The position numbers and the translations under genes were made by a program. A stretch of DNA of 50,598 nucleotides from Ectocarpus siliculosus (Eukaryota > Sar > Phaeophyceae > Ectocarpales > Ectocarpaceae), in NCBI GenBank assembly GCA_000310025.1, contig FN649744.1, positions 2,808,660 to 2,859,257 of the forward strand. The letters run 5' to 3'. Positions 7,102 through 43,900 of this stretch are shown here, in pieces. The first letter of the stretch is position 1; every line of letters starts with the position of its first letter. The notes beneath the pieces are model-generated. The model was given only the letters and a program-made list of their open reading frames with translations. It had not been told where the DNA came from and did no database searches.

Positions 7102-8411
7102 CGGATACACAGCCGACACTTTAATGTGCTTCCTCTGCGCACGGAAAGGAAATGTGCACGCATGGGGCCACCATCGACTTCTGTCTTTCGCAACGACCTT
7201 TCGAACGGGTGCTTTGTCCCCTGAAGGTTTTCTAATTCGGCCTATGCATACTAGAACGTACAAATACCGAGGCTACAAGGTTGCCTTAGCGTGGGGCTTT
7301 AATCTTTGTTTGGCTCCGCTTTTGAACCGCGCCTCCCGCGGTGAGGGTCTTGGGCTTCCGTGATTCGCGAAACACTGTAGACTATTTTATCGCCTGTGAG
7401 ACCTAGACCTATCCACAGGATGAACGAGTACGCTTATGAAAGGACTGGTTCTGGCGGTTTCGTCGATCGCCCCAGCTGCACCCTCTCAGAGGTGGGCCTT
7501 ACGTCCCGGCCACCCGCAATACGGTTCCTCTAGCGCATTGCAGTGATTATGAAACACCTACCAAATGCAGCAGCAGCGTCAGTTGAGCCTTCTCAGGCCT
7601 GAACAAACACAAACCCTTGCGCGCTATATCGTGCGGTATAGATTGTAAAACGAGAAGAACACTTACACGCACTAGGGGAAGACGCATGCGTTGACCCTGT
7701 TTAGGCAACGCACTACTATCATCGTTCAAAACGGATCAAATTTCACCACGCATTCTGAGAACTCCTTCCTCTGTCTCGAACGATACGCAACGCTTCCATC
7801 AAACTATTAAGAGCTTCCTTTGTTTCCAACTCCTCATGTTTTCATTCAAACGGATCGATTTCCACCCCGCATTGGTAACCCCTTTCCCTTTCTCTCGATA
7901 ATACGGGACGCTTCACCATATTAAGAGCTTGCTTTGCTTCCAAATCCTCGCGCTTTCTCCCACGTGCTTCCCCGTCCCTGACGATGCCCGTACGTTGCGC
8001 GCGCTAGTCCTGCCGGTAACGGCAGCGGACTTCCAATAGCCAGAGAACGCTACCACATGAACGAACGAAGCGACTATTAATTCCCTGCAGAACGCTGGGA
8101 GTCTCACGCGTTCGAGCGCGGACTCGAGGCAATTCCTGGGGCCCACAACATAACCCACAACATAAAACAAACTACAGACGACAACAGCGCCGCGCTCGCT
8201 CTTCAAGCACACCCGTACGTGCAAACTTGCGTGGAAATACTGCATCTCCCCGAGAGTATCTCGACCCTTCGTAAAAATCGGAGCACTCTTAAAAAAACCC
8301 TGAGATCTGGCCCATCATGAACCCCCCGACGACTCGTGCAGTTGCCACCCCTCTCTCCGCGAAACGGAAACCGAAGTGTCACCCAACCGATTCTTCTTCG
8401 TTTCAGCCCCA
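7102..8411. other. Convergent intergenic region (3' ends of both neighbours)
   Basis: No coding exon is recognised. The region must hold the 3' UTRs of the plus-strand chelating-domain gene and the minus-strand hydrolase. It also holds the diverged tandem duplication at 7728-7960. No canonical AATAAA that clearly belongs to either gene was picked out. Confidence 0.55.
7728..7960. repeat. Diverged tandem duplication
   Basis: Two copies of about 115 bp begin near 7730 and 7846. Shared blocks include AAACGGATC, CACCACGCATT/CACCCCGCATT, TCTCGAACGATACG/TCTCGATAATACG, and TATTAAGAGCTT followed by a TTTGCTTCCAA-like block. It is non-coding and lies between the convergent genes. Confidence 0.6.
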
Positions 8412-11400
8412 TCAGATGCTGTCGACCTTTGGCGGGAGCACCTGTGGCACGTAGTTCATGATGCACTCTTCCAGCGAGTTGATGACCATCTTGAGGATCG
8501 AGCCCTTGTCCAAGTGGTGGCTGGCGGTCTTTTTTTTTTGTGTGTTTGTTGAACCGGCGAAGAGCATCGCGTTTCCATCGGCAAAAGGTAACGGCGGCGG
8601 GGAGCAGTCGTCCGTGGATCGTCACAACCAGAGACACAACAGCAATTTTCACACGAACAGCCGCAACAGATGGGAGAGAGAGGGGGGGGGAGCGCAAGAA
8701 CGTTTTAGATGAACGGCAACACGATATACCTGCGAGGCTCAAAAGTATTTGACACTTTCTTCGGCCTGCATGCACACGCTGGTCTCTTTCTTTCACGTGC
8801 GAATCCAAACACCCGACATGCACGAAGATGTACTGCCCGCTCCGTCCAGTCTTTCGCAAAAGGCGGGATAACCTCCGAAAGATCCAAGCCGACCCCCGAA
8901 TCCAACAGCACTAGCACAAGGTGGCAGGCCGGATACCGTCACTCAGAGCAAGCACGTTTGTACACGCAGGTACCCACTGGGACTGTGGCGATAAGTCCCA
9001 CGACGCCTAGCCACTGCTCTTCGGGTATATATTTCGCCCCCCGCTCAAACCGTGGAAATAAATAAAACTGCCTGCGTGTACGTGCGAGGTCCAGGCAGTG
9101 AAGGTACACAAACAAGAAAATGCTCCGAACTGTGCGTACTCCTGGCAGTAAAGGTACAAAAAAAAAAAGAAGCTTCCTACGTTGTGGTGAGCTCCACACA
9201 GTCCGTGCGCGGCGTGCTCCCTCTCTTCCTCACCTTCACGAGGTACAGGTTGACGTTCGAGCTCTGTATCCGGCGGGAGAGGTCGAGGGAGACAGTGTAC
9301 GGCACTTCTTCGTCGTTCAGCCTGACATTGGCAGGACAGGGTACGACCCCACCCACGACGCGCGGAGGCGACGGCGACGGCGTGTTTTTACCGTAGCAGG
9401 GGGGAAACAAGTCAGCAGATTATGCGTGTGTGTCAGCACGGCAAAAGTAGTCTGACACAGCTCTTCATGTCTTCCTGACGACGACCATCAAATCAAGAAA
9501 AACGCAAGCTGCTCACCCTCGTCACACTCTCCCCAAACACGGCGCCACCGCCTGAACCTTATCCGGTAGCTCACAGGGCGGGCACCGGCAACAACAAAGC
9601 GAACCACCACCCCCCCCCACGCCGGTGAAACTAGCGGGACGAAAATGGAGACAACTACGTTTAGCCAAAATTACTCCTCCCCAATCCCAATGAGGAAAGC
9701 GGTCGCGAGCTCACCCGTGTATCAACCGCACTGGGCAGGTGATGGGCAGGCCTCCCACCGGCCCCTCGAGCACCAGGTTGTCCTTGGCGTCTTCGATGAG
9801 CACCTTGCTCACCGGGTACGACCTCTGCCGGTCCAAAAAAAAAGAAAAAAGGGGGAGGAGGGCAACCAATGAGCTCGGTTGTTCGTCGGAGTCAAATTCA
9901 CGTTCCTCGGGCAGACGCTTTGCGTCAACCGCTACGCGGAAAGGAGAGGACGTCCATCTTCTAGTCCCGTGTAAGTGAAGTGGGAGACAGAGGGCGGCGA
10001 ATGAGGCATCCCCCCAAATGCACCAACACCACCACCGAGCTCGAGTTACCGAGCTCGAGTTACTAGGCACGGGGATGCTCCCCGATGGCAGAAAGAAACA
10101 GAGAGCGCGTCGCAACCAACAGCATGGCGGCTGTGTTCCAGCTTAGCGTCACACTACAAACGGAAAGAAAACACGCAACTGCTCCTTCGTGTCACACAGC
10201 ACAGCGGCACGTACCTCTCCCCAGGCAATGGTGGCCACCCCCTTTTCGTATATCTCATCGATCTTGGCCTTGGGCAGGTAGCGCATCAGCAGGTTCTCCG
10301 TGAAGTCCGGGTCGGCGGCGAGACCGACGATACCCCCGACTGTATGGTGCAGGCATTCACAGGCACAGCAAAATAGAGACAAAAAAACGGCGTCGGCCAG
10401 GGTGATGCGGAAGAGGGGGTGGGTGGGAGCGGGGAGTTGAAGCATGGCGGTGGTCGCGTTCTTTCAAAAAATACTATCTGCGTGTCCCCCGCACTGCGAA
10501 ATAACAAAACATTCCAGCGTCCGCTGATGCACAGGATCACTGGCAACAACGTCGAGGAGTGGTGATCACACCCAAAGCTACGATATGTCTTGGCTACCAT
10601 ATTTTGGCTGCAAACTGGGAGGGATCTCAGAACCTCTCGTTCCAAGAACAATCTTAAATTTGGGGCACCCAAAGCACACCGTGGTTGGGTGCCGTGCCTA
10701 CGCGGGGCGAACCGATCGTCCACGACCCGGCGTGGTTTTCAGATATTTTGTGCGCATATCAAATCCAGTCCTTTTGTCTCTCTCCTTCCTGATTTCGAAG
10801 GAAGAAAAAACAAAGGCGATAACAATCTACAGCTTGACACCGCGAGATGGGAAAGCAGTCCAAAAAACTCGATCCCACCCCTACATGCCGGGAAAAAAAA
10901 AAACACAAACAGAACCCATACCAGCTTCCTAGAACTGTCAAGATAAATATCTGCCACGACTTCCGAATCTCGCTCTCAAAACAAGCGATCCCTCCATGGT
11001 CGTCGATTTTCTTTAAAAAAAAAGAAGTAACCGAGAGGTCGGAATCGACGATGCGTTTCACTCGAACGAGAGAGAGGTAGTCGTAACTACGCACCCTTTT
11101 CCGGCCTCTCCAGGGCGATGAGGGTAGCGATCCAGCCCCCTACGCCTCCCCCAACGATGATAACCTCCTGGTACGCCTCGGGGAGAAGCTTATCGATGAG
11201 GGTGATTGCGTCCTGCTTCCACCTGCAACAAAAACCAAAAAAGGGAAAGAGAAAGAACCACCATAGTAAATGAGATAAATGCAAATCCGGGAGCAAAAGG
11301 TTGTACACCCAACAAGCCACCCGAACTAGTGCTGTTTACAAGAAAAACTCGTCTTGAAGGCTTTTCGCTCCGGGAAATCTGACCCCTGACATACGGTAAA

Positions 11401-14274
11401 TGAGGCATTGCACACCTCGGACCCCTGGGATAAAACGAATTCGGTGAAAGGTCTTCCACCTGTGCATATCTGCCGTATGAGTCTATCGTATCGCTACATG
11501 TAACCGTACTGTTTCGCATGCCGCGATCTTTCGTTTCTTCACCTGGAGATTGTGCCGTGTTCGAACCTCCCCTCGCTGTCGCCGACCCCGAACCACTCCA
11601 TGGAGATGAACGGGTACTCCTCGTCTTCGCAGTACCTAGGATTGAGGTACGGTTTGGATTGGGATGGTCGTTCGGGTGGGCGTCAGAGTCATGTCAAAGG
11701 TCGAACCACGCTGCCGCGGCACCTGCCGGCCGCCAGGCAGAACAGCGGCAGGCGATTCTTCGTCGCCAGCATGAAGGGTTGGGGCGACTAGAGTTTGTGC
11801 ATGCGCACGTCAAGATGCTCTCCCTCCCTCCCCGCCCCCCGCCCCCCGCCGCGCCTCTCTTTAGCTTTTGACACAAAAACCCTCCCATGTACCAATACCC
11901 TTTCAACGCAAAACGCTACAACACCTCTCGTCAGGACAGGCAAGACAATCCCCGCAGGGACAGCAGAGTTGCACGCAAAAAGAACACATTCCATCCCTTT
12001 CTGTTCCGCGGCCCAAACACGCCGGACTGAACTGAAAAGAGGTTGGCCTCGCTGTTGGGCGCCTGAGATCTTGCTATGGTGTCGTTCTTCTGTCCACCGA
12101 CCGGGGTTAGCAAGACAAACAAATAAATCGGAGAAAAAAACACTGCTGTACACCACTGCACAAAAACATCAAGGGAGGGAAACGCCACGCAGGTCTTGTG
12201 AGCAAGAGAGAATCTCTGCCCCAGTGTCCAACAAAAATATCATAGCTCAACAGATTTCAAGCGCACCAATGTGACGGACTTTTACTTCCCCTTCTCCGCC
12301 CAAAGGTTGGTGGCTGTTCCGATTCTCCACCCCAATTTCGGGGGGTGCCGATCTTCGCGCGCAAAACCGTGGTGCGCAAGAGAACATCGAAGGTACGAGA
12401 GCGCTATCATGTCCCCGAAAAAATTACATCGACCAATCATATCGACGCCGATGTCTATTTACGGTGTCCTGGTCACTCACGATCGGAGGCTGTCCGCCTT
12501 GTAATCGTGGGCGGGAGCGTCGAAGGCGGGAAGGTATAGCACCGCGGGGCTTCTGTCTCCGCCGAGCGCCATGTAGCTGATCTTGTCCTGGCCTATCACC
12601 ATGGTCATCTCCCGGCCCCACAGGGGGTTTGAGGCGGTGCGACTGTCTTCCCTGTCTCCATCCTTCAACATGCCGCAACAAACAGAACGAGGGAAACGAA
12701 AAAAAGAGGAGATAAGATCAAAACAACAATAGTATTGCAACAAAGGGAGCATGATCCGCTGGTGCGCAGGCGGTGTATCCTGCGTCGCCGGCTTCATGCG
12801 GATCTCGATACCGGTGTGCTTCGTGTGCCACCCAAGCAGCAGTGTAAAGTGGTTAATAGGAGGTCATGACGATATTAATAGTAGAAACTACCGACAGGCA
12901 GGCGTGAAAAAGTCCGTAATCCTGGCGACAAAGTTAGGTATTTTGTTTCGTGGCAAAAAACGTGCCCTTATCCTGAAGGTTCTCGTCCGTGGTCGTGAGC
13001 GCCAGTCCCAAAGACAATCCTATGCGCAACGCTCCAACAGGGATTGGGTGTACCACACAGTCATGGAGAAAAAAACGTAGCAAGCGAACCAGCAAGAGGT
13101 GAAAGGCGACACGTACAGTACCTCGTCGTCGTCTGATCTATCTCCATCTTCCTTTGCAGCCTTCTTTCCCTGGAGCCTTGTTTCCCTGCTGTGCGACGCG
13201 CAAAGAGCAATGAAACGCTGGTTGTAATCAGCGTACCCGATCCCGCCAAGAAGGACTCTAGATCAATGATCTCGGCCATTGTACACTCCATAGAGGAATA
13301 GAGGTGTCACACACAGCAGCGAGGGGGGAGGCACGCGGGTGGTCGACGTCAAAAGCACAAGAGTTTCGCACCCTTGTGGCACAGCGCCAGTGCCTCCTAA
13401 TCCCATGTGTCTCTCGTCGACAAACGATTGTAATGAGGAGAAGGAAGAGGAGGAGGAGGAGGCGGAAGGAGCTATGGCCATGTTCTCCATGCCGCACCCA
13501 TGCATGGTACTGTACGGCCTCACTGCAATTACCATCTAGATGTAGAAGTGTTTTGGGGTATACAAATGAAGTGTATTCTTGCACACTGAAAAGAAAGAAC
13601 GCCACCGAAGATACGTATCCCCAGCAGCCCGGCGCTAGGCATTGGTTGGTGGTACGCTCGCGAGCCTTGTGCGCGTGGGGTGGCCAGCGCAAACACGGCG
13701 GTTGCAGCAACATGCACGTGGGTCCTGCAGGGATCTGCTGCTGCGTGAGACAGTGCAGCCTTGGGGCAACGAACGTCAATGGCTACGCTCAAGCCCACGA
13801 ACACGCATGAGGGACCAACATACAAAACGAACCACACGGCACAGGCTGCGCTGCGGGCCGTGGTCTAAGTGTATCGCACATACCGCCTCCAACCCAGATA
13901 CTGCTGTGTGTCGTGCACCATGATGAGGCTTTTGGAAAAGCCCGCTTGCTGGCAACACAAGAGAGGGAGAGCGCACGAGAGACGTGTGATCCTCCACTCT
14001 ATCAACAGTCAGAAGAGAAGCATGTCAAGGCAACGCTGAGCTGATCACCGTACGTCGACGTTTCCCTTGACAGCTGTCTCTCTCGGCTCATGTCTCACCT
14101 ACGGTGGGAACATGTCACACGTGCGCCGTTGGCCAAACCAGCGGCTTTGGAGCCTCGGCGGGCAGAAACAGGGGCAGTCGCAGCGGGCGGGCTCACGACA
14201 GAGGGCGGCGTCCGCACCACGAATCCCGTCGCGCACGACGCCAAGGCCGGAAGGAAGGCAAGGTAGGCCTTCAT
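8412..14274 (-). CDS. ABHD10-like alpha/beta hydrolase with Ser-to-Gly nucleophile, organelle-targeted
   Basis: Nine exons, given 5' to 3' on the minus strand: 14274-14099, 13188-13122, 12662-12481, 11635-11543, 11222-11095, 10339-10215, 9824-9715, 9321-9234, 8528-8412. All junctions close in phase and give 361 aa. The N-terminus (MKAYLAFLPALASCATGF) is a hydrophobic signal peptide ending in an ASAFAP-like Phe motif, then a Ser/Pro/Arg-rich transit region, so plastid import is likely. Residues 60-100 are an acidic linker. The fold matches ABHD10 (acyl-protein thioesterase / acyl-glucuronidase family): VLYLPAFDAP, MEWFGVGDSEG, then the elbow VIIVGGGVGGW where ABHD10 has VGSSLGGW, ALERPEKV, CPVRLIHGLNDEEVP (acid Asp297) and ASHHLDKG (His328). 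Position 199, the expected nucleophile Ser, is Gly (codon ggc). Either it is a pseudoenzyme or it carries a base change. It shares a divergent promoter region with the G alpha gene. Confidence 0.85.
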
Positions 14275-14959
14275 TTGGGTTCGGCGGTGAGAGAGCACAG
14301 AGTAGGCGCGAACAACCCGAACGCGGCAGGTGTGCGGCGAGGCACCGCGGTGCATGATGCTCTTGTCCGCCGGGAGCAGGGGCACCCGCAGATAACGTAA
14401 TAATATATTGTGGAGAAAATAATGCAAATGATGCTCTTTGCCGTACCCCCTTTTGGTCCGCTCCCCGCGCGCGCGACTCGCTCTCTTTTCTTAAAATCTG
14501 CTCGCCATCCTCTCGATCTGAGCAGGGCACGCGTGTAAGACAGAGTAGCAGTAGCTTAGCAACCACAGCCACTGCAGAAGCAGTGCCCGCTAAACCACCG
14601 GGACACCAGCGACGGCAGAGGAAAGCAGAGGGAGGCAACAGCAAAGCGTCTCTCCTTGCCGAAGAATTTTCCGGGGTTGTGGTGTGTGTGTTTGTGTTGC
14701 TCGCCGCTTGTCCGACGAAGGGGAGCAAAAGGGGCGGGAGAGAGAAGGAGAGCGAGAGGCAACCGGCCGGCACGTCCAGCGATCGCCGTCACTGGAGCGC
14801 AATCTTGAGAGGGAAGCTGCGGAGCTGAACCGATCCGCTACCCCGTTCATCAGCCACACACACGTGTGGTGGCGGACTGAACTGCTCGGTCGAACTTCGG
14901 TGGATAATTTCAGGACGAACCACCAGTGACGCCGCTGCTGACTGTGGGAGAGAGCAAGG

Positions 14960-15038: not shown

Positions 15039-18000
15039 ATGGGGTGCACGCAGTCAAAGAATGGAGAGGACTCGGCCGCAGCACGGCGCAACCGAGAGCT
15101 GCAGCGGGCACTTGAGCAGGTGGGATTGCGCAGAGGATGTCCAATCGCCCCCCGTCCAACGTGATGTCGTGATGACATAACACCTACCTGCTGAGAACGA
15201 TCCTGCTTGTGTGTCCCGCCAGGTAGTATATTGGTATGAACGCAAAATCTGTTCCGTAAAAGAATGGGTCGTGCTCGCACTCCTCTGCTGCCGTGCGTTT
15301 GTTTGTTTGGGCCTGTTTGTGTAGCGCTCTTGTGTGCATTGCTCGTGTCCATCACGTGCTTGGCAAACCCGCCCGGCTACGCACCGCAGAGAGTGTAGTT
15401 TTAAGTTCTTCTCGTCCATACCACTGCTACGGGGACACTTCGAGACTGCAGCAGGTCAGCACCGCTTGTTTTGCTGCACTATGAAATGTAGGATCCTTCT
15501 CCTCGGTGTTTGCTCCCCCTTCCGTCAGCAATTGCACGTAGTAGCAAAGATCATGTGTGGGGCGCTGCATACATGAACACACCTGCGGGGCGATGTGCGA
15601 CGAATGTCGTCCACATGTACGCAACACCCCCCGGAATTTTGTGACTCCCCCCTCTCCGGCGCGGGAGGTGACAGGCATTTTCCAAAGGAACGCGTGTCCT
15701 GTATGCACACACCGATGTTCGCGATGATTTCTGTTCTGGTTCGCCAGCAGTTTTTCTCTTTCTCCCTAGATAAAAAAGCCCCGAAATATCCCCGTCCCCT
15801 CGACGCTTGCTTGTGTATCTGTGCTTTGCGATGGAGAGAGAGTCGCAACAACTGCTATTTCGTTGTTTCGGGGTTGCCGATGGCTCAATTATTTTCTGTA
15901 TCGCGCCTGTACGCTGTCTTGTGTTCTACAATGTGTACAATGGTTGAGAACGAAACGCGTTCACCTCTCTCTCTCATTGCCTGTGCTCTGCCGGATACCC
16001 TTACTGTCATCTGCCTGCTGTTCAAGCAGGTGCTGCACGAGGTTTTTTCCGGCAACAGACGCATGCATACATGACCAATAGACTGTCCGTTGAGGATACT
16101 ACCACAGGCCTGTAGTCCGTATTTCGAACCAATCATAACGTACCGGCACGACCGCAAGCATGCGAACTCCCCGGCGCCAATTCGGGGCGTTCTGCTGTAC
16201 CTCCGTTCACAACTTTACTCTCGTTACATACTCGGTAATGAAGATGCGATTTGTATGCCTTCACCACGCCACGACTGCCAGCCAGCAGTCCGTCGAGATG
16301 TTCTGTTCTTTTTGCTCAGGAAAACGCGGACGCACACACGTACCTGTGAACGCAAACAACCAATCAAAGTTCTTGCTGTTTGCCGGATTGGGGGGTTTCG
16401 TTACATATCTTCGCAAGGAACTCAAGCTGGTTTTAGCAAGGGATACGGGGTTGGGTTAGCGTTAGCGTTAGCGTTAAGGGTAGTGATACGAAGCCCCCCT
16501 CTCTCTTTCATTCATAGATTGGCTCTGAAATCGTCGCGAAGGCGATTCCTCCCTTAGGCCCATACGGCAGCAGTGGGCCCTCAACAACGCTGGTTGAATA
16601 ACGCCAGTTGCTCTGTATAGCGCGGTAAAATTGCTGGGCACACAGACTGAATCACCCATTGCCATTCTGTGCCCTTTACATAGCGCCGTTCCCTCTGAAA
16701 AGTGCTGGTCGATTCGCTGGGCACATATTGGCTGTTTTTGAGGGCCCATTTCTGCCGTGCATACCCGTGCTATGCGTTCGAATCAGCGTGAAAGACGCCC
16801 ACCACACGAATTATCATCATGATCGTTTTTTTTGCAGGCCCAGGGCACCCAGGGCACCCGCGATTCCGCAAGACTTGGCGGGGCCTAAACATTAGCTAGG
16901 GCCCGCCGCCCCCACGCTGGAAGCACGGCCCAGAACGCCAATGCGGGGTGTTTGGCCGCCAATATCGTATGGAATCTATTAATTTGAATCTACATCGATA
17001 TTGGCGAGCGAAACGAGCCGCTGGTAGCGAGCTAAGCGAGCCGCTGGTACCGAGCGAAGCGAGCCGTTAGTGGCGAGCGCAGCGAGCCGGCGAGCACAGT
17101 GAGCTGACGCGCGGAAGCTCGCTGTGCAAGCCCAAGCGGCCCCCCCCGGCTGGTGAGGGGGCCCCGCTGGAGGCGCCGCCGGAGGCAATTTTTTTTGAGC
17201 AATTTCGCTTCATTTCCCATCAAAATTACCTGAAAATACGCCTCCGAAACCTGCAGTCAGTGTACAGCCAACTGCTTGAAAAAACAGTATGTATGTGGTA
17301 ATAGTCTACATCTACACTGAATCATGTCATCAGCTCATTATTCACTACTACTGCTTCAAGAAAGCTCAGCGGTATCGCACGCCGCAACAAAAAACAAGCT
17401 TGCTTGTCGCAGAAAAGTCAAGCTCTCACAACAATGAGAGATAAAAAATGGCACAATAATGAGAGATAAATGGATAGTAGCTGCAGCTACTTCGTTGAAT
17501 GCGACAGCGTGCAGCTGCCGTGTGCAGTGTGGTGTGCAGCAGTGGGGGTTCCGCGTGGAACATCGGGGGTTCCGTGGAGTATTTATCGATTTATCGTATC
17601 AATATCGAAATAGTACAAATATCGAAAAGTTCAAATGTTTTCGATATACGATATCGATACGATAAATCGATACGATATATCGACCAAATCGATACGATGT
17701 CCAATACTATAATAGTTCGAGTCCCGTCGTAGGCACTCCGTTTGGCACTTTTTTCTCTCAAAATGTATGCCCCACGTAACAACGCGGATATAATGATCCG
17801 TGTAAATAATCCGTGTGTACAGGAGTATGGTAGGCAACAAATTCGACCTCGCTGGGTATTTAAGAGTGAAAACGACCGACTGAATCACCTTGAAAATCGG
17901 GGCAAGCACCGCAAAAGCCGTTCTCCTCGGTGGTTCAGTCGGCGACCTCGAAAATAAACCCTTTCACCCTTGAGGCTGCGGGTTCGAATCTTCGGAGTGA

Positions 18001-21000
18001 TAAAACTCATCGCAATCTCAGGAGAGTGGGAAACGTGTAGCAGTCATGAGCACGCACGCCAATCTTGTCGCGTTGAGAATCGGAGGCTCGCCGCAGCAGA
18101 AGAAAACGAATGAACTCGCGTGTAGGAATGAATGCAATAGGAAGAACCGAAGACGCATGGGGACCCGACCGCCCATTTGTTTGCACGCCGGCTACGAACA
18201 CCAGTGTGGTGTTTTTACAGGGGAGGGCTGCGTTATGCAACGAGCGCTCAGCAACCGAAATCACACAGTTCGATAAAATCCCCCGCTGACGGGTCCACCT
18301 CAAGTGTTCACCCTGGGATTCGCACCCAAGATTTTCTTCGTGTGTACGTCCGAAAATCAGACCATTAGCCCGGTCATCGCTGACTGGTCCACCTCAAGCG
18401 TTCTTCTATCCTGGGATTGCGATCCCACGACATACTTTTCTCGCGACCGAAAATTGAAGTCGTTGGACCGGTCAGCGGTGACTGGCCTAGTGGGTTTCAT
18501 TTGGGTTCCTTCTTGCGCCACTTCGACGCTAGCCGAACGGTCTCGGAAACTAAAAGTGCGACTCGCAAAGATGAGCCAAGGTCACTTGACCAATACAACC
18601 CGACAACGCCTGCCGCTGCCAATTTTTTTGTCATTTTTTGACAGGACAACAAGACGGAGCAGGAGAAGATAAAGCTGCTGCTGCTGGGACCGGGAGAGAG
18701 CGGGAAAAGCACCATCTTCCGCCAGATGAAGCTAATCTACGGGGTCATCTCTGAGGATGACAGGGTTAGCCTCGTGAGTGCTTTTCGTATTTACCCTTGT
18801 GGCCCTACAGGCGTACCGACTGATCATTGACTGATCACTAGCAAATGCTGATGTGGAGGCAAGCCGTGGAGTTCCCGCCCTCTGTAGCCCTCTACGCCGG
18901 GTGTTGGCAAGTCTATAGGGATGTCTTTACGCATTCCATCAACCGCGCTAACCGGTTGGCCACTGAAAAGGTCCTACTTTGTAGGTAGGATCCTTTTACA
19001 GACTCGTAGTCACATGTACATTGGTTGGAAGGATCCAGCAGTCATCGTGTCAGCTGCTTGCATATGCATACAACACTACACAACCTGTGTAGTTGAGTCA
19101 AACAAATAAGCACAGCAGACGACATGTACAACATACACATCATAGCTCCACACATACTCTCGCCCGAACCTAGGAAGCCGCTACGTAGGTGTGTGCTGGT
19201 GTGCTAGTGTGATTGTGTGATTGTGGAAAAAAACAGGAGCTCTAGTGAGCCGGCAGGGCTGACATGAGGGGGGGGACAGAGAAGTACAGAAGTCAAATAC
19301 CAGCTATGGCCCTTCACTGATCATTTTATTGATAGCTTTCGGTATATACTGAAAATAGATTAGTTGAGGCGGCTGGACGACTGATCATTTCAAGGTCTAC
19401 AAGGCTACCTGCCCTACGGGCCGCAGCGTGACCACCCATCAGCTCTTCTATGACTCTGTCTATGGGCACTACCCTGTCGCGGGCGGCTCGCATGGCCTAC
19501 AGGTGGAGATAGCTGTTGCGTCTACAGAAGAACACTGCTGTCTTTTGCTGCACTTGTCTCTTTTTTTTTTTCTGCGGCGGAAATTTCTTTTCGACACCGA
19601 AAAGGAACCTAGGGCCAAAGGGGTTATCTACAATAGGTCACCTTCTCTCTGTGGGAACCGCTGCTATTGCTTCTCTCGTGGTTGCTGCTGAAGCCGTTGT
19701 TCGCTCATCGTTTCCTTTCTTGGTGTTGTTGTTAGGCTGGTTACTGTTGCCTTGAAACGTCGTCTGAAAGCCTGTTTGGCGATTCAACCAATCAGTGCAC
19801 CCCGAAGGCTGACAACGTACCCAGCCGAAGGACACTGCTGTGAAACGGAAAGTTAGCCCGAAGAGAAATATGGGCGAAAGGCAAAACCGTCGGCCTTGGG
19901 GGGAAGAACCCCGCTTGTCTCCACCGCCGCATATGGCCTCCCGCCGTTCCCCTCTTCGTCGACCGCGTTGGCGGCTATGCATACGTAGTGTTGATTGATT
20001 TTTAGAAAATAAAATACATGCGATCAAAGAAAGACCTTCGTACCCGTCCTTGATGTAACCACAGTCGAAGGGGTTGGGTAGTTTTTTGTGTGAAGTTCAC
20101 CCTGGCTTCCCGCCATGGTCTTCCTCTCCTGAACACACGCGCTAAAAGACGACAAGACAGTGGAAATGGTGACTCGACCCCCCCCCTCTCCCCCTCCGAA
20201 CCTTTGGTGTTTTTTATTGTCGAACGAACGCGGTAACCACACAAGACGCCGGTGGTTTACGCCAACACGATCAGCACGATCAAGATGGTCATCAAGAAGG
20301 CGGGCTTCTACGGCTTCGAAAAGCAGGTGCGTGCTTCAGTTCAGCCCCCTGTTGTTTCGGGGCCCTCGTCCGCAATAGTTTTTCACGATAAGGAAATATG
20401 ACAAGATGAAAGCAGCTTCCTAGTATATACTTTGGTCTCGGTGTTGTCCTATCCCAATTTTGTCTCTTCTTTGTTTTTTTGTCTTCTTCCCTTGGACATG
20501 TGTCACGCGTCGGCCCCTACCCTTCAACACATGCCACGTCAAACGTTGTCGCAACGAAAGGTGGTGGACCAGGATGCGATAGGGTTGATACGAAGTTTGG
20601 AGGATCAGGCGCCCATCGACGAGAAGGTTGGGCAAGCCATCACGGCCTTGTGGGGGGGTGAGTGGGAGATGGGCTCTTGTACCAGAGTCGTGCTTGTGTG
20701 AAGTATGTTTTGTCTGTGTCCTCGTGTTTATTACATAGTTGGGCATTGAACGGGGTGATGGGTGAACAGACGATCGAAGTCTCGCCGGGTTCCAACCGAA
20801 CGTCCTTCGCACGGGCGGGAAATTCGAAATTTCGAAGAATGGGGGGCACGCAGAATGTCAAAGGGGTCTCTTAGATGCAAACGAAAAGCATAGCTTCACG
20901 CCACTGATGCGGTCCTCTGTGGCTGGCGTCGACCGCGTCTACCGGCTCACCGATGCCAGGAAGCCAAACCGTCGCGAGCAAACACAAAAAACGAATCAAA

Positions 21001-24000
21001 CCTTCTTCCAGTCTGCTGGGCCTCCCGACATTGATGTGACGTAGTATGTTTTTTGTGCTATTTGACTTGATTAATAAATAGAGCGACCGGTTGGGTGTGA
21101 AAATATGCCCGTCTGGGTGGATTTTTGGCCTAGATGCATGTGTTGTCAGCGTTGCCTTTGCATCGACTCCTGTGCCAGCCGACTACCCGACAGTATAGCC
21201 GCTCGCGAGAATGCTAAGCTTGGTCCAAGTAGGGGTCATGGAGCAGGGTTGGGGGTACAAACCCTTCACTATATCATAGATTAACATTAATGTCCTCGCG
21301 AAAGGCGGCCCTTGCTGTTGCCGACTAAAGGGGTCCGTGTGTCCGTCCGCGTGTGTGCTTCGTTGGACCGTTTCTTCCATCAGATCCTATGATCCAAAAG
21401 ACGTGGGAGAAGCGCAGCGAGTACCAGGTGATCGAGAGCATGAAGTACTTCCTGGACGGTATGTCTAGGATTATGCAGCCTGAGTACGTGGCCACGCCAC
21501 AGGACATCCTGCACATTCGGATACGCAGCTCAGGTGAGCGTCTAGGGAGGAATGAGGATTGTTGCCGGTTCTGCAGGTAACATATGCTACATGTAGCATA
21601 GACTGAGACTATCTATCTTTACGTGTACTTGTAGACAAAAAAGTAACCTTAAATGGCCCCGGTACACCTCAGCGTGTATTGATATCAAGTTGCTGTTGCT
21701 TTCAGTGTATCGTGATGAGTTAGTTTTCTCTGTCGTTTGCACTTGTTTTTGGATGGATGCATTCGTCAATGAAAAGTAACGGGTGAGAGAAACGGACGGC
21801 AGCGTGGTCTGGTTCTTCGTTCGAGCCGGGTGTTTTTGTCTGTTCTAGTCTACACTTTACAGCGTGCCACCGTATTCAGGCCGGGCGTGGTTTTGTTTTG
21901 TTGATGTTATCGTACTCGTTGTTGTCTACCTCTGCGTGATTGCCGCCATAACTCTGTGGTACTTGGAAGTAAGTGTTAGGTTGCTCGTTTCCGGTCCTTC
22001 GGCGTTGTTGCTGGCTTCTTTTTTTCTTTCTTTCAGTGTGGTATTTTGGTCGATGTGATGGTTCGTTGTGTCTCTCGCTAGGATTGCTGTATGTCTTGTG
22101 ACATTATATCGACCTTTTGGGGGGTTAGACGGCCTCACAACGGCGTCGATCGTCATGTCTGGCATGATTAGTCGTGATTGCTTCGCGAGGTATTTTCTTC
22201 AAAAGCAGGGCTGCATCCTTGAACATGTTGGCCGTACAACGTTTATTGGAAGTGTGACAGCTCCATGCTGTTGATGTCTCGAGCCTCACCATATCTCTGT
22301 GCAGTATTTATTGGCGTTATGGTGTAAACGATACGTGTGTTACGGTTGGGGTCTGACCATTGTCTGTGTATCGTTCTGTTTTTGTTTTTTTTTCCTCAGG
22401 GATCGTGGTAGACAAGTACCGCATCGACGGGACGACCTTCGAGATGTACGACGTGGGGGGGCAGCGCAACGAGCGCAAGAAGTGGATTCACTGCTTCGAC
22501 AACGTGACCGCCGTCATCTACGTCGCCGCTCTGTCGGAGTACAACCAGGGCATGTTTGAGGACGCGAACACCAACCGGTACGGCTCCTGGTTGCTTGTAA
22601 AAACGGTTGTTGTCGTTGTTGTGGACGGATTTTTGTCCGCTTGAATGGTCGTTGTCGTCGTTGGTGTTGTCTTTGTCGTGGTGGTGGTTCTGTTGTATGA
22701 TGGTTATCGTTGTGGTTGTTTGTGGTACGGTTTCTGGCCTCTTGAATGGTAGTTGTCGGTCCTTGGTGTTGTCGTTGTCGTGCTGGTGGTTTTGGTGTAT
22801 GGTGGTTGTCGTTGTAGTTGGTTTGTGGTTTGGTCATCTTGTACAATACACGTCGTTGTTGCGGCTGTCGGCCTCTGTCGCCCACCTACATACCCTGCTT
22901 GTCCTGGCCGGTTGTAGTTCATGTATCAGGCCGCTCTTTGTTCTTGGCCGTATGTCAACCGCCTTTTTCGCGTTCTGAGTTCCTCACGTTGTATTCCCGT
23001 CTGCCCGTAGGTAGGTGCCTTGCGCACACTACTTTTGCCGCCCGCTGTCATGCATGCGTGCCCTGGCGAGGAACGCCACTCGTGCATGCCTGCGATGATG
23101 CCTCGGCCCGACCTCGTTGTCCGCGGCCTTTTTCGCTCCAAACACGCACACGGCACGCAGCCAGCCCCTTACACAGACGAACACGCGCGCAGCCCTACAT
23201 CCTCGCAAGTAGCATAACACTTTCTGCTGCCTGTTGTGGAAGTATTTGGAGGTGGTGGCGATGGGGTGGTTATCGTTGGGGCTTTTCCCCGCCCTGTTGT
23301 GGCGAGGCCTTTGCCCTCGTATTGCTATACCCGCTGACCTGCCTGCTTGCCTGTCTGCTTGCTTGCTTGCTTCCTGTCTGCCCTGTGGCCACGCCGCCTG
23401 GTTGGGGTTGTCAGCATGACGGAGGCGGTGAACCTCTTCCAGGGCATCTGCAGCAATTCCTACTTCAAGCGCTCCAGCATCATCCTCTTCCTCAACAAGA
23501 AAGACCTCTTCGCAGAAAAGTTGGCGGTGAGTGTGAGGAGGCGATCGCTTTGCTGGTGTTTTTGTTTGGTAAATTAGCGTCACGATTTCGCCTGACGACC
23601 CTTGCACCATGCGCCCTCACCCGGTTTCACCTTTCGCTGCAATCCTCGCTCCGCCTTCGTCGTTTCGAGGTATTGTGTGATGCGCGTCGCGGCTTCGCGG
23701 TGTGCATAGCGATGCTGCGGATTGTTGTCTGCCACGAGATCGAAATAGACCAAACCCGGCGTAATATCGCCTCTAGAACCGAGGTTGCGTTTACTTGTTT
23801 GCCACGAGGAATAATCAATACCGACAATCCTGGCGTTGTAATGCCTCTCGAACCCAGTCAGCGTTGTCTTGTGTGCCACGAGATCGAAATATTCACCCCC
23901 AACCTAATCATGCCTCCTGAAACCGAACCGCAGACGAACCCCATCAACCATACCAAGGAGTGGTCGGACTTTAAGGGGGCCTGCACATTCGACAGAGGGG

Positions 24001-25110: not shown

Positions 25111-25964
25111 CGTGTTTTGAAAAAACAACCACGGAAGGACCAGCGGTTTCATGGATTAGCGGCAATTGGTGCATTGCTTAGCCGGTGCTTGGCCGCCTGC
25201 CTACGCGTTGTGCGGCGGCGAGCCTTCAAAGGAGTTTCCAAGCGTTGGCGGACGTTTTTGTGCAAGGAGAAAGGAAGAAAGAGATTACGGGGGGCGGCGA
25301 GGGCTCTGGTGCGCGCCGCGCGCAAGAAATCGCGCGTTTTATAGAGAGAGCGTGACGGAGAAGGGGAGCGGAGTGGGTGCCAATGACGCTGCACCGCGGG
25401 TGTGAAACGTGTGGGGTGCGAGAGGAGAGCCATGATGGGAGCCGGGGGGCAGGGGGGGTCGCTGGTTGGGATGGGGGGGCGGGGGGGGCGGCACCTTGGT
25501 GAGTAGCTCCCAATCCGACGGAGAGCTGGTGGGTTACAAGTTTCGAAGGATTGGCGGAGAGACCCACCCTGCGTGTACATCCCCTTCTTTTCTCGTGCCC
25601 CCAAGGGACCTAGCCGAGGCATTGACGAACAGGGAATGGGGACGAAGCCGCCCCCTCCCCCCCTTCCCGCCTTCTTGATTAGCGTGCCCTTCGAGAGAGA
25701 CGTGTACGTCTTGGCGGGGAGGGGGGAGGAGGCTGTTTGATGGGAACAGAGGCTGCTGCTTCTGTTGAGTTTGGTTCACGCGGAGGGGGGGGGTTCACGC
25801 GAAGGATCGAGGGGTGCGGCCGGGTACGGAGACGGAGGGTCTTTTGAGGGTCCAAGGTAGGGCCAGGTGGGTACTGGCCGCCCTACATGCTGTGCAATAT
25901 CTTCGTCTGCCACGCGTGCGTGTTTTTGGGGTGCTTGTTTTTGTGCCGGGGCCCGTGATCGGCT

Positions 25965-26372
25965 NNNNNNNNNNNNNNNNNNNNNNNNNNNNNNNNNNNN
26001 NNNNNNNNNNNNNNNNNNNNNNNNNNNNNNNNNNNNNNNNNNNNNNNNNNNNNNNNNNNNNNNNNNNNNNNNNNNNNNNNNNNNNNNNNNNNNNNNNNNN
26101 NNNNNNNNNNNNNNNNNNNNNNNNNNNNNNNNNNNNNNNNNNNNNNNNNNNNNNNNNNNNNNNNNNNNNNNNNNNNNNNNNNNNNNNNNNNNNNNNNNNN
26201 NNNNNNNNNNNNNNNNNNNNNNNNNNNNNNNNNNNNNNNNNNNNNNNNNNNNNNNNNNNNNNNNNNNNNNNNNNNNNNNNNNNNNNNNNNNNNNNNNNNN
26301 NNNNNNNNNNNNNNNNNNNNNNNNNNNNNNNNNNNNNNNNNNNNNNNNNNNNNNNNNNNNNNNNNNNNNNNN
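25965..26372. other. Assembly gap (408 N)
   Basis: A run of N flanked on both sides by G-rich sequence. Any open frame through it is meaningless. Confidence 0.99.
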
Positions 26373-27448
26373 CGCCAACGAGCTCGGAGACTTGAATCAA
26401 CCCGGGGAGGGGGGACTCTGCACTAGGTAGCCAGACGACTTGGGAGGGGGGGGGGGGGGTACGTCGTTGCCTAGAGATGTTGCGTGCGGGTGTGTCATGG
26501 GAAACCGGCGCGGCTTCCCGTTCTTGTCTCTTGAGGCTGATAGGTTGGTGTTGAGAGAAACTGGACTGGGCGTGCGTCACTGGACACAATTTGGGTTTGG
26601 CTCGCAGCAATTGCTACAGAAGCAGCAGCGCCGAGAGAGATAAACACGCCGACACAGAGGGAGAGGGCGAGCACTCGTCCTCTTTCTTGCGTACAACAGT
26701 ATCATGTGTTTCGATGTCTGGGAGGAAGCGGGAGAGCAGCTAGGGTGGGTTGCGATGCCGCCTCGCACTTGCTCCTGGCCGGCTCGTGCTTGGCATCGCG
26801 AAAGCGGGCAGAGGGAAGGGCCGATGAACGGGGAGAGAACGAGGGACAAGCACAGAGGAGAGCTAGGAGTGAGATGGGGTACGAGTTGTTGTGCCGCGAG
26901 TGCCTCGGGCATGATGCGCCGGAAAGTCGTCGTCTAGCTGCCGTTGTATTTTTTTTTTTTTTGCTTCTTGCCGCCGTTCGACTTTGACTGAGGTCTCGAC
27001 GTAGCACCGACCGGCCTGCTGTAAGATACCTGGTACTAGATATGTCGCCCCCCTGGAGGCCGGTAGGACTGCTTTTGACATCACAGTGAAAGCTACGGCA
27101 GTGGTGCAAGAATGGGTGTATGATATACCCCGGGCGGGCAACCGGTATATCGGCGGCAGACATTTGGGCTTGCTTGGACTTGATCCGCCTGTAGAACTAG
27201 GCTGGCCGCCACACCTTAAGTGGTACTGTACTGGTGTGGGGCGAGTTTGGCGTACATATGATATGCGTATATTGCACATATATGCGGTCTCGCGCGTAGG
27301 CATTTTTTTGCCCCTAAAGCCCTGCGGTCGATAAACCTGGGTTGTGTCGTTTGTATGTCTGTATGTCTGTATGCATGTGCGTCTTGTTTACACTCGTAAC
27401 GGTGTGTTGCTCTCTCTCTCTCTCTTTAATTTCCGCTTTTCATTGCAG

Positions 27449-40975: not shown

Positions 40976-43900
40976 GGGAAGAGAGGATGACAAGATACAA
41001 TGCCTGCGCAGATTCGTGACAACGTTCGTGTTGTACCCGCCTTTGCAACACCATGGACACCCGTCTCATACCCTCTGCTGGATGCAACACCGACCTGGGG
41101 CCACCTAATTGCTACTCTTATCCAGACCTCGTAACGGCGTCTTGTGACTCGTTTCATCCCGACGTCGATGTCCGGGAAAAGTCGGATCGAGCTGTCGGAT
41201 TGTCATCGTCTGAGGCAGAGCGATCTTTGAGGACTGTACCACCGACAAGTTCGACTTCATGTCGTGTTTCTCATTTACCCATCGCCTCAAACATCCGCGA
41301 TATACTCTTCGTGTTACCACGAGATCACCTGCTGCAGACAAAGAGCCTCTGCCCTGTGTTCTTACGGCATCGTTAAGATTCTCTTGCCTGGAAACCTGGG
41401 ATCGAAGGCGTTCAGGTCCCCTTCACCGAGATCGCAATCTCTGATGCCAATGATCCTCGGAATCTCGGAGAAGTTGACGGTGCGGAAGAGTGCACGGCCT
41501 CCGGCCCATCCCAATAAATTCCCGTTGACCTACGTCACAACGGATGGTGGGATCAAACAATAATTCTCACACCTTTAAGGCGACGCTCGCACGTGCCCAG
41601 ACCTAGCCTGAGGTTTCACGTTCGCTCAGCATCCGGATCGACTTTACGAGCGCCCGTCACGCATTGATATTGGTAACGATGAATATCTTATTGGAGCACC
41701 AGGTATGTCGACATCATCCAAAGTTAAAACGAATTCTAATCGATTGGAAGTTGTGTGGAAGAAACCGTACGCATCGCAAGTGCTACATCTGGAGGAGCTT
41801 TTGTGCCAAGCACGAGATAAATCTGTTGCTCCCTAGACAGACACGCTTTTCTCCACCGCGATTACACACCTGGAAGTTCTTGATGGCGGTATTTCCTCTC
41901 AGCCCGTGACCCAACGCTGCCGCTCCCGAGCACGAGATTCCGTTGAAGCTGACGTCTAGATGGGTGAGGGAACAGTTGACCCCGAGCGCCTCCCCAAGGC
42001 TGAACGCTCCCTGGTCACCCAGCCTGTTGCCGGCGAGGCTTAGCCACCGCAGCGCCTGGGTGGGATGATAAGCGGAACACGTAAGTCATCGAGTCGCATG
42101 AGTTGAATCATTGATCGCTACAACAGTGCGCCAGAAGGACGCGGGTCGAGAATAAGTATTATCCCTCACGCAGACCATTAAGCTGGCGGGAAACCGATGA
42201 AAATAATTTGGGACCCCGCGCTTGAACAAGTTGAGGGAGGCCGAGAGCTCGGTTGGAGCCCACCTCGAATCAGACGAGACTCGGAACCATCGGAGCTACA
42301 ATAATAGTGTTGGAACGCATGGAACGGGTAAAGTCAATTTGGGACGGACTGATAGCACAGGCAGTCACTTGCCTTGCCAAACCTAGAGAAAGGGGCGGAA
42401 GTTTCTTGCGGGTGAACACTCACTTCGGAAAATGTTACCAACATCGGATGTACCTGAAAGGAAACAACCACCGTTAATTTTGTTCTTGGTGTTCTCACCT
42501 GCGATGATATGTAGAGAAGCGTGCCTAATACTCGGAAAATATGCTTCTTGTATATATTTTCAACACGCAAGGCGTACTATCGTCATGTCATCGAGAAAAG
42601 TGTACATTCAGCACACGGTGGCGGAGGCCTGTTCACGTGTGTTCATACGGTCGCCTTCAACGAGGCCATAAACTTACATGGTTGTTCTCGAGCGCCAACC
42701 CGATGGGGGCCGCGTTGATTTCTCCTATCTGTGACATCAAGTGGCAAGGCAGACAGGTGTAGACAAGGTCAAGATGGTTTCCTGATCCGTGAAACAACTT
42801 TTGGCGACGGGAGGCGGTGGGTGGGAGAGCGAAGATTTGATTTAGTTCGCAGCCTGACCAACCGTCCTGGGACTGTGCACGGCGACGCGGGAAACAACAT
42901 CAACTACCTATCTTGATGCTGATAAAACACGAAAGATGCCAGCGTTAGGAGAACATTGACGGCATGCCGTGCCAAACAAAAAATGATCATGGCACCGTCC
43001 AACCCCCGAGTTGTCTGGGTTAGTCCACGAAAATTGCAATTAGACGTTAACGACGCCTGCCATGTTTGATGACTGAAAGCATGTTTTCCCCGAAGGAGAA
43101 AATCAACCCTTGAAACGTCGCCCACTCAAAGCAGAAACACCTCTTAGGCGATGCTTGGTGACTGTTGCTACTCTCTCCTACCTTGTTCCAGGAAAGGTCT
43201 AGGTAGGTCAGCGAGTTGTTCGAATCAAGAGCCAGAGCGACTGAGGCGCCGCCTGTCAGCCGATCGGCTCCACCAACCTCTCCCCCACTGCCGCCGACTC
43301 CGGCAGCGGCTGACGCGGCTGAACCTGCTTTGTCAGAAGGCAGCACAAAAAAAGGTTGCCCATAGAACCACTCGAGGTAATCAATGTGAATATCTTGGTT
43401 GAATCGCTTCCGTGAGATTATTTTCTCTCGGAAGCCGCGTACATCTGGATGTAAGCTGAGGGGCCTTGCGATGCCGGCAATCGCACCGCCCCCACGGGAT
43501 GCAGAAAAAGCAGCGGTCAGGGATCGTGAAGGAGAGAATACGGAGAACGCACCACTTTGTGCGTACTTGAACCGAATATCTTGCCAAATCTAGCCTTCTG
43601 ACTACTCGGTACGAAGCATGTTACCAGCAGGTATACGTAGATCGGATGCAAGCAACGTCTTTCATCGAATACCAAATATTGAAGTCAACAATGGTTGAGA
43701 AAACACGACCGAGAACACACATTGTTACCGCTGAAGAAAAATAATGAGGGTACCGGGGTTCTCTGTTTTTTCATGCTTCGTAGACAACTATGTCGGTGTT
43801 GCTAGCCACTGGCTCAACTACGGCTGTGCCGTGAACACCACCTGGCAGACTACCATGGAAGACAGGTTGCACATGAGTTTCGTAGACCTTTCAACAGTCA

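Follow-up and report, generated by a model that had tools for sequence, protein, structure and literature searches.

The locus described here raises the question of whether an algal α/β-hydrolase with glycine in place of its nucleophilic serine is still an enzyme and, if not, what its fold might serve. The gene, which is nuclear, lies on the minus strand at positions 14274-8412 of the window, the 50,598-nucleotide stretch of Ectocarpus siliculosus DNA that was analysed. Its nine exons splice into a reading frame of 1083 bases encoding 360 amino acids (Table 1). All eight introns, which range from 320 to 913 bases, begin with GT, end with AG and leave the frame in phase. The GC contents at the first, second and third codon positions of the whole frame were 0.60, 0.44 and 0.80, respectively, versus 0.53 in the introns, and the coding bias across the gene has not decayed. 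These data bear out the frame, open through nine exons, that had been proposed in the first-pass annotation of this DNA.

The exon that matters most here, exon 5, has clear borders (acceptor ttgttgcag|GTGG, donor AAAAGG|gtgcgt) and a normal coding bias of its own (0.64, 0.38 and 0.79). Third-position GC was lower in exon 1 (0.69) and exon 2 (0.48), and the assignment of these two exons is less certain than that of the others. The weakest part of the gene model is the exon-9 acceptor, which is preceded by a run of A and lacks a pyrimidine tract. Exon 2 has a tandem acceptor, cagcag, at 13183-13191, of which the site three bases upstream adds one residue. The 361-residue product described originally is obtained from the upstream site and a 360-residue product from the alternative one; the two are equally possible. 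Residues are numbered here according to the 360-residue product, such that the earlier numbers are higher by one (Gly199 is Gly198 and Asp297 is Asp296).

Table 1. Positions in the window of the exons of the hydrolase-like gene, of its nucleophile codon and of the neighbouring G-protein alpha gene.
Feature	Positions	Strand	Content
Exon 1	14099..14274	-	Start codon; segment resembling a signal peptide, then a basic, transit-like stretch (residues 18-58: 0 acidic, 6 K/R)
Exon 2	13122..13185	-	Acidic linker; tandem NAGNAG acceptor giving 360 or 361 aa
Exon 3	12481..12662	-	First strands; oxyanion loop (LPAFDA) with Ala for Gly126 and for Ser129
Exon 4	11543..11635	-	MEWFGVGDSEG; Asp154 to Glu; family form RFDYSGHG or RFDYFGHG
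Exon 5	11095..11222	-	Nucleophile elbow VGGGVGGW, residues 195-202
Codon ggc, Gly198 (nucleophile position)	11144-11146	-	Ser in compared relatives
Exon 6	10215..10339	-	Strand after elbow helix, AADPDF; Ala224 to Asp
Exon 7	9715..9824	-	LIEDAKDNLVLEGP, CPVRLIHG
Exon 8	9234..9321	-	Catalytic-acid position Asp296 within GLNDEEVP
Exon 9	8412..8528	-	Catalytic-base position His326 within TASHHLD; stop codon; weak acceptor
Putative G-protein alpha gene exons	15039-15119, about 18640-18800, 22405-22560, about 23494	+	Separate exons read

The neighbouring gene appears to be arranged head-to-head with the hydrolase-like gene, the two start codons being about 765 bases apart, and to encode a heterotrimeric G-protein alpha subunit. 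Its recognizable parts are a start reading MGCTQSKNG, a P-loop exon, an exon of 52 amino acids containing DVGGQRNERKKWIHCF and an NKKD exon. The DVGGQRNERKKWIHCF exon matched the G-alpha chain of 8vga (E 1.5e-16) and the miniGq of 9uan (4.6e-29 over two stretches). The P-loop reads GPGESGKS; the usual G-alpha form is GAGESGKS. Elsewhere in the window, a Pfam scan of 20 long open frames returned no match at the curated cut-off; a leucine-rich repeat match on the minus strand at 43050-43589 was sub-threshold (LRR_6, 18.6 bits against a cut-off of 23.4). Runs of X in the open frames at about 25900-26400 reflect a run of N, and the whole window contains 408 N.

According to phmmer searches, the best solved match of the gene product is mouse ABHD10 (6ny9; E 3.6e-32), with which it is colinear over the hydrolase domain, residues 108-345, in agreement with the family originally proposed. 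The next solved matches were 8trf (E 4.3e-24) and 3llc (E 1.3e-23); the product is colinear with both and 30% identical in a three-sequence alignment. It is also 30% identical to mouse ABHD10 across 230 positions. In Pfam, Hydrolase_4 matched at 41.4 bits (cut-off 27), and the Ndr profile was sub-threshold at 10.6 bits (cut-off 23.3). None of the 21 models listed in an NCBIfam scan came near its cut-off, and a PADLOC scan gave no match. By homology, the product is thus predicted to adopt the α/β-hydrolase fold.

Conservation was assessed in two sets of relatives. Set A was collected with the three-sequence alignment as query and comprises 80 bacterial loci from prokaryotic contigs, the best 80 of 569 confirmed, together with one viral contig. 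The bacterial loci were selected on two motifs (residues 151-159 and residues 165-173) and not on the elbow; the viral contig was selected by motifs at 166-173 and 221-228. A search of viral contigs with the single protein found no relative, and the same search with the alignment found one, 32% identical, which is the viral member of set A. The median identity of the product to set A (best 80 of 569 plus the viral contig) was 33%, and the closest of these relatives was 38% identical. Set B was assembled without such a motif filter: in a search of 398 genomes from a single bacterial phylum, matches of any strength occurred in 168, and the strongest 126 were taken as rows. At least one gene is common to both sets. 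Invariance at 151-159 and 165-173 is partly imposed in set A by the selection motifs. In set B, which is free of that filter, Asp154 was present in 126 of 126 rows, and Arg152 (112/126), Phe153 (94/126) and His158 (107/126) were looser.

The elbow codons are GTT GGG GGA GGC GTA GGG GGC TGG, which encode V195-G-G-G-V-G-G-W202. Where an ABHD10-type serine hydrolase has the nucleophilic serine of the GxSxG motif, the product therefore has Gly198. The elbow of mouse ABHD10 reads VGSSLGGW, with both serines present, and serines occupied 197 and 198 in 81 of 81 rows of set A (best 80 of 569 bacterial loci plus the viral contig) and in 126 of 126 rows of set B, the strongest matches in one phylum. 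Position 198 is accordingly Ser in all 207 rows (206 bacterial and one from the viral contig, with at least one gene counted twice). A second elbow exon bearing Ser, Cys or Asp was sought by pattern. The seven matches of a six-frame scan of the whole window, and the two obtained with a broader pattern for the minus strand at 8001-14600, all lacked the conserved Trp after the glycines. The first-pass annotation had reported a missing serine nucleophile, with VGSSLGGW as the family form. The codons agree with it, showing neither Ser nor Cys at the elbow, and the mouse elbow has the family form given. A-to-I RNA editing was rejected as a means of restoring the serine, on the reasoning that ggc cannot be edited into a Ser codon.

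The remainder of the catalytic apparatus is partly retained. Asp296 and His326 are kept, and the matching columns held Asp and His in 81 of 81 rows of set A (best 80 of 569 plus the viral contig) and in 125 of 126 rows of set B, with one gap each. The acid proposed at first was therefore placed correctly. The base was also rightly said to be kept, although the catalytic histidine is the first of the HH pair, His326 (327 in the 361-residue numbering), and not its neighbour, His328 of that numbering. At the neighbouring position, Arg is found in 60 of 81 relatives in set A (best 80 of 569 plus the viral contig) and in 122 of 126 in set B. Some chemistry may persist with the His and Asp that remain, and these residues are the basis of the main rival to a pseudoenzyme: a working enzyme of another kind, lyase, isomerase or dioxygenase-like, in which the His-Asp pair would act as general acid/base and no Ser acyl-enzyme would be needed. 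That both residues are intact despite many other changes at the active-site edge speaks for such an enzyme. Nonetheless, the pair may instead be kept for structure, the Gly and Ser of the oxyanion loop have been replaced as well, and nothing in the analysis points to a substrate or a reaction; we consider this reading unlikely.

The loss extends further than the single residue noted originally: Gly126, Ser129, Asp154 and others are gone as well. In place of the Gly and Ser that an ABHD10-type serine hydrolase has in its oxyanion loop, the product has Ala126 and Ala129; in the relatives these positions were Gly and Ser throughout the 81 rows of set A (best 80 of 569 plus one viral) and in 125 of 126 rows each of set B, with one gap. 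Beyond the elbow, the substitutions at positions near-invariant in both sets are G126A, S129A, D154E, A224D and S329D. This pattern bears on whether the glycine codon is a sequence error or a rare allele, the true codon being agc. The protein would then have a GGSVGG elbow and be a divergent but ordinary hydrolase of the ABHD10 type. The two codons differ by one base, and all 207 rows counted have Ser. One base error could therefore explain Gly198, but not the set of changes, because several near-invariant positions are altered: G126A, S129A, D154E, S197G, A224D and S329D are spread over exons 3, 4, 5, 6 and 9, which is beyond one error. We regard an error or allele as distinctly unlikely. Since other positions at the active-site edge have changed too, the case for lost activity is stronger than the single base on which it was first argued.

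The extent of loss was then expressed as a count over 34 invariant positions, defined as those at least 95% conserved in set A (best 80 of 569 bacterial loci plus one viral contig). The algal product has lost 13 of these, mouse ABHD10 7, 8trf 2 and 3llc 1, the last two figures including one gap each. In a leave-one-out count, members of set A (best 80 of 569 plus the viral contig) each lost at most 2. Because the invariant set was derived from the bacterial relatives, which are hence favoured in the count, mouse ABHD10 is the fairer control, and the contrast to weigh is 13 versus 7. The mouse protein is also changed at 3 of the 13 lost positions (158, 199 and 329) and retains Gly126, Ser129, Asp154 and both elbow serines. 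The algal product has the longer terminal branch (1.42 versus 0.99 for mouse ABHD10, and 1.21 versus 1.01 without the 13 sites). Its position in the tree had low support (0.34 and 0.68) and was set aside.

The long branch and the 13 of 34 lost positions are what would be expected if the gene were decaying, with a recent loss of constraint and a drifting active site. Against this stand 360 open codons, nine in-phase exons with every splice border intact, and third-position GC above the GC content of the introns. In addition, 21 of the 34 invariant positions are kept, among them G157, G159, W173, G196, G200, W202, D226, G293, D296 and H326, compared with a median overall identity of 33%. Gene decay is thus very unlikely.

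To place the substitutions in the fold, we used a confident structure prediction for L003, a bacterial relative (mean pLDDT 95.4); it models the relative and not the algal protein, and its numbering was taken from the invariant columns. The top Foldseek matches of this model were 8trf, 6ny9 and 3llc. Columns matching 126, 129, 198, 224 and 329 lie in loops or turns just past the central strands, where this fold has its active-site edge; 154 directly follows its strand, and 197 is at a strand end. As many of the kept invariant positions share the same loops, we do not claim spatial enrichment of the lost ones.

The glycine-rich elbow also invites a different reading, in which a plastid pseudo-hydrolase would have rebuilt the elbow as an anion- or dinucleotide-binding loop, GGGVGG, complemented by the new Asp224, turning a deacylase into a lineage-conserved sensor of nucleotides or acyl-phosphates. 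Asp224 is a new acid after the next strand, where the relatives have a near-invariant Ala, and together with the loop it gives a weak hint of nucleotide binding. In a scan of the 41-residue elbow peptide, FAD_oxidored scored 13.9 bits (cut-off 27) and FAD_binding_2 11 bits (cut-off 20.4), and both were outscored by hydrolase profiles. For 3llc, the single relative with the elbow Ser that was scanned, neither FAD profile was listed. Among solved structures, the peptide matched ABHD10 best (E 0.00088), with flavoprotein chains at E 0.098 and worse. The elbow contains GxGxxG because replacing Ser by Gly in GxSxGG yields that pattern automatically. A Rossmann dinucleotide-binding fingerprint was therefore rejected as mostly an automatic result of the substitution, with profiles below cut-off, and we consider the sensor reading very improbable.

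The N-terminus bears on where the product might act. Residues 1-17 are largely hydrophobic and are followed by FVVRTPPSVVSPPAATAPVSARRGSKAAGLANGARVTCSHR, in which 21 of 41 residues are S, T, A or P, with no acidic residue and six K/R. This arrangement resembles the bipartite plastid signal of ochrophytes with a Phe at the cleavage point. Variable N-terminal domains, 30-50 residues long, that carry ASAFAP motifs have been described for ochrophyte plastid proteins (PMC5462543), and in diatoms the signal peptide is followed by FAP or FXXP (PMC3774753). Compared with these published forms, the algal sequence, ASCATG-FVVRTP, is not exactly FAP or FXXP. The plastid targeting suggested by the first-pass annotation therefore finds agreement in the hydrophobic start and the acid-free basic stretch that follows, but not in the exact motif; the bipartite-looking N-terminus points more weakly to import into an organelle, perhaps the plastid.

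Hydrolysis in the ABHD10-type family passes through an acyl-enzyme formed on the Ser side chain. As this side chain is missing and the oxyanion loop is altered, the acyl-enzyme would be unable to form, and the product probably no longer works as an ordinary esterase. With this route closed, the vacated pocket more probably serves for binding or docking, and the protein may have taken on such a role. At the N-terminal end of the elbow helix, this pocket would lie open and could bind a small ligand (acyl, anionic or other); alternatively, the fold could offer a docking surface, as in ABHD5. Overall, we consider it likely that the product is a divergent, full-length pseudoenzyme of the ABHD10 family, perhaps targeted to an organelle, with binding instead of hydrolysis as its role, its function and ligand being those we infer from sequence. 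The pseudoenzyme case is built on one sequence from the alga.

Comparison with characterized proteins helps to define this candidate. ABHD10 is the mycophenolic acid acyl-glucuronide esterase. Like ABHD10 (mouse 6ny9), the algal protein keeps the acid and base positions and the GxxxGGW elbow framework. Unlike ABHD10, it has Gly for the nucleophilic Ser and for the neighbouring Ser, Ala for Gly126 and Ser129, and Glu for Asp154; its N-terminus also appears plastid-like rather than mitochondrial. The bacterial ABHD10-like hydrolases, such as SM0281 of Sinorhizobium meliloti (8trf) and 3llc of Agrobacterium vitis, are colinear with it, but those sampled all have Gly-Ser-Ser-x-Gly at the elbow (81/81 in set A, the best 80 of 569 plus one viral; 126/126 in set B). 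Non-catalytic α/β-hydrolase folds occur in the neuroligins, which are animal adhesion receptors, and in the NDRG proteins; both belong to other subfamilies than the algal protein, whose Pfam Ndr match was sub-threshold. ABHD10 is reported to be a mitochondrial S-depalmitoylase (PMC8389839), and the lipase co-activator ABHD5/CGI-58 is an α/β-hydrolase that works as a regulator with Asn replacing the nucleophilic Ser (PMC8850477). Replacement of this Ser is common to ABHD5 and the algal protein. ABHD5 differs in belonging to another branch (the best match of the algal protein is ABHD10), in having Asn rather than Gly, and in that a lipase partner is known only for ABHD5.

A search of the open-licence literature returned no report of an ABHD10 pseudoenzyme and none combining hydrolase fold, pseudoenzyme, nucleophile and glycine; among the papers listed, titles and opening abstract lines mention no algal ABHD10-type pseudoenzyme. 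By term search, 'hydrolase' does not occur in the main text of PMC5462543, nor do 'hydrolase', 'pseudogene' or 'G protein' in PMC12629598. An annotation based on fold would label the gene product a hydrolase, and the locus serves as a warning in this respect. If the glycine is conserved, the gene would represent a pseudoenzyme of the ABHD10 branch in a complex alga and a defined case of a thioesterase-type scaffold turned non-hydrolytic, with its His and Asp left behind.
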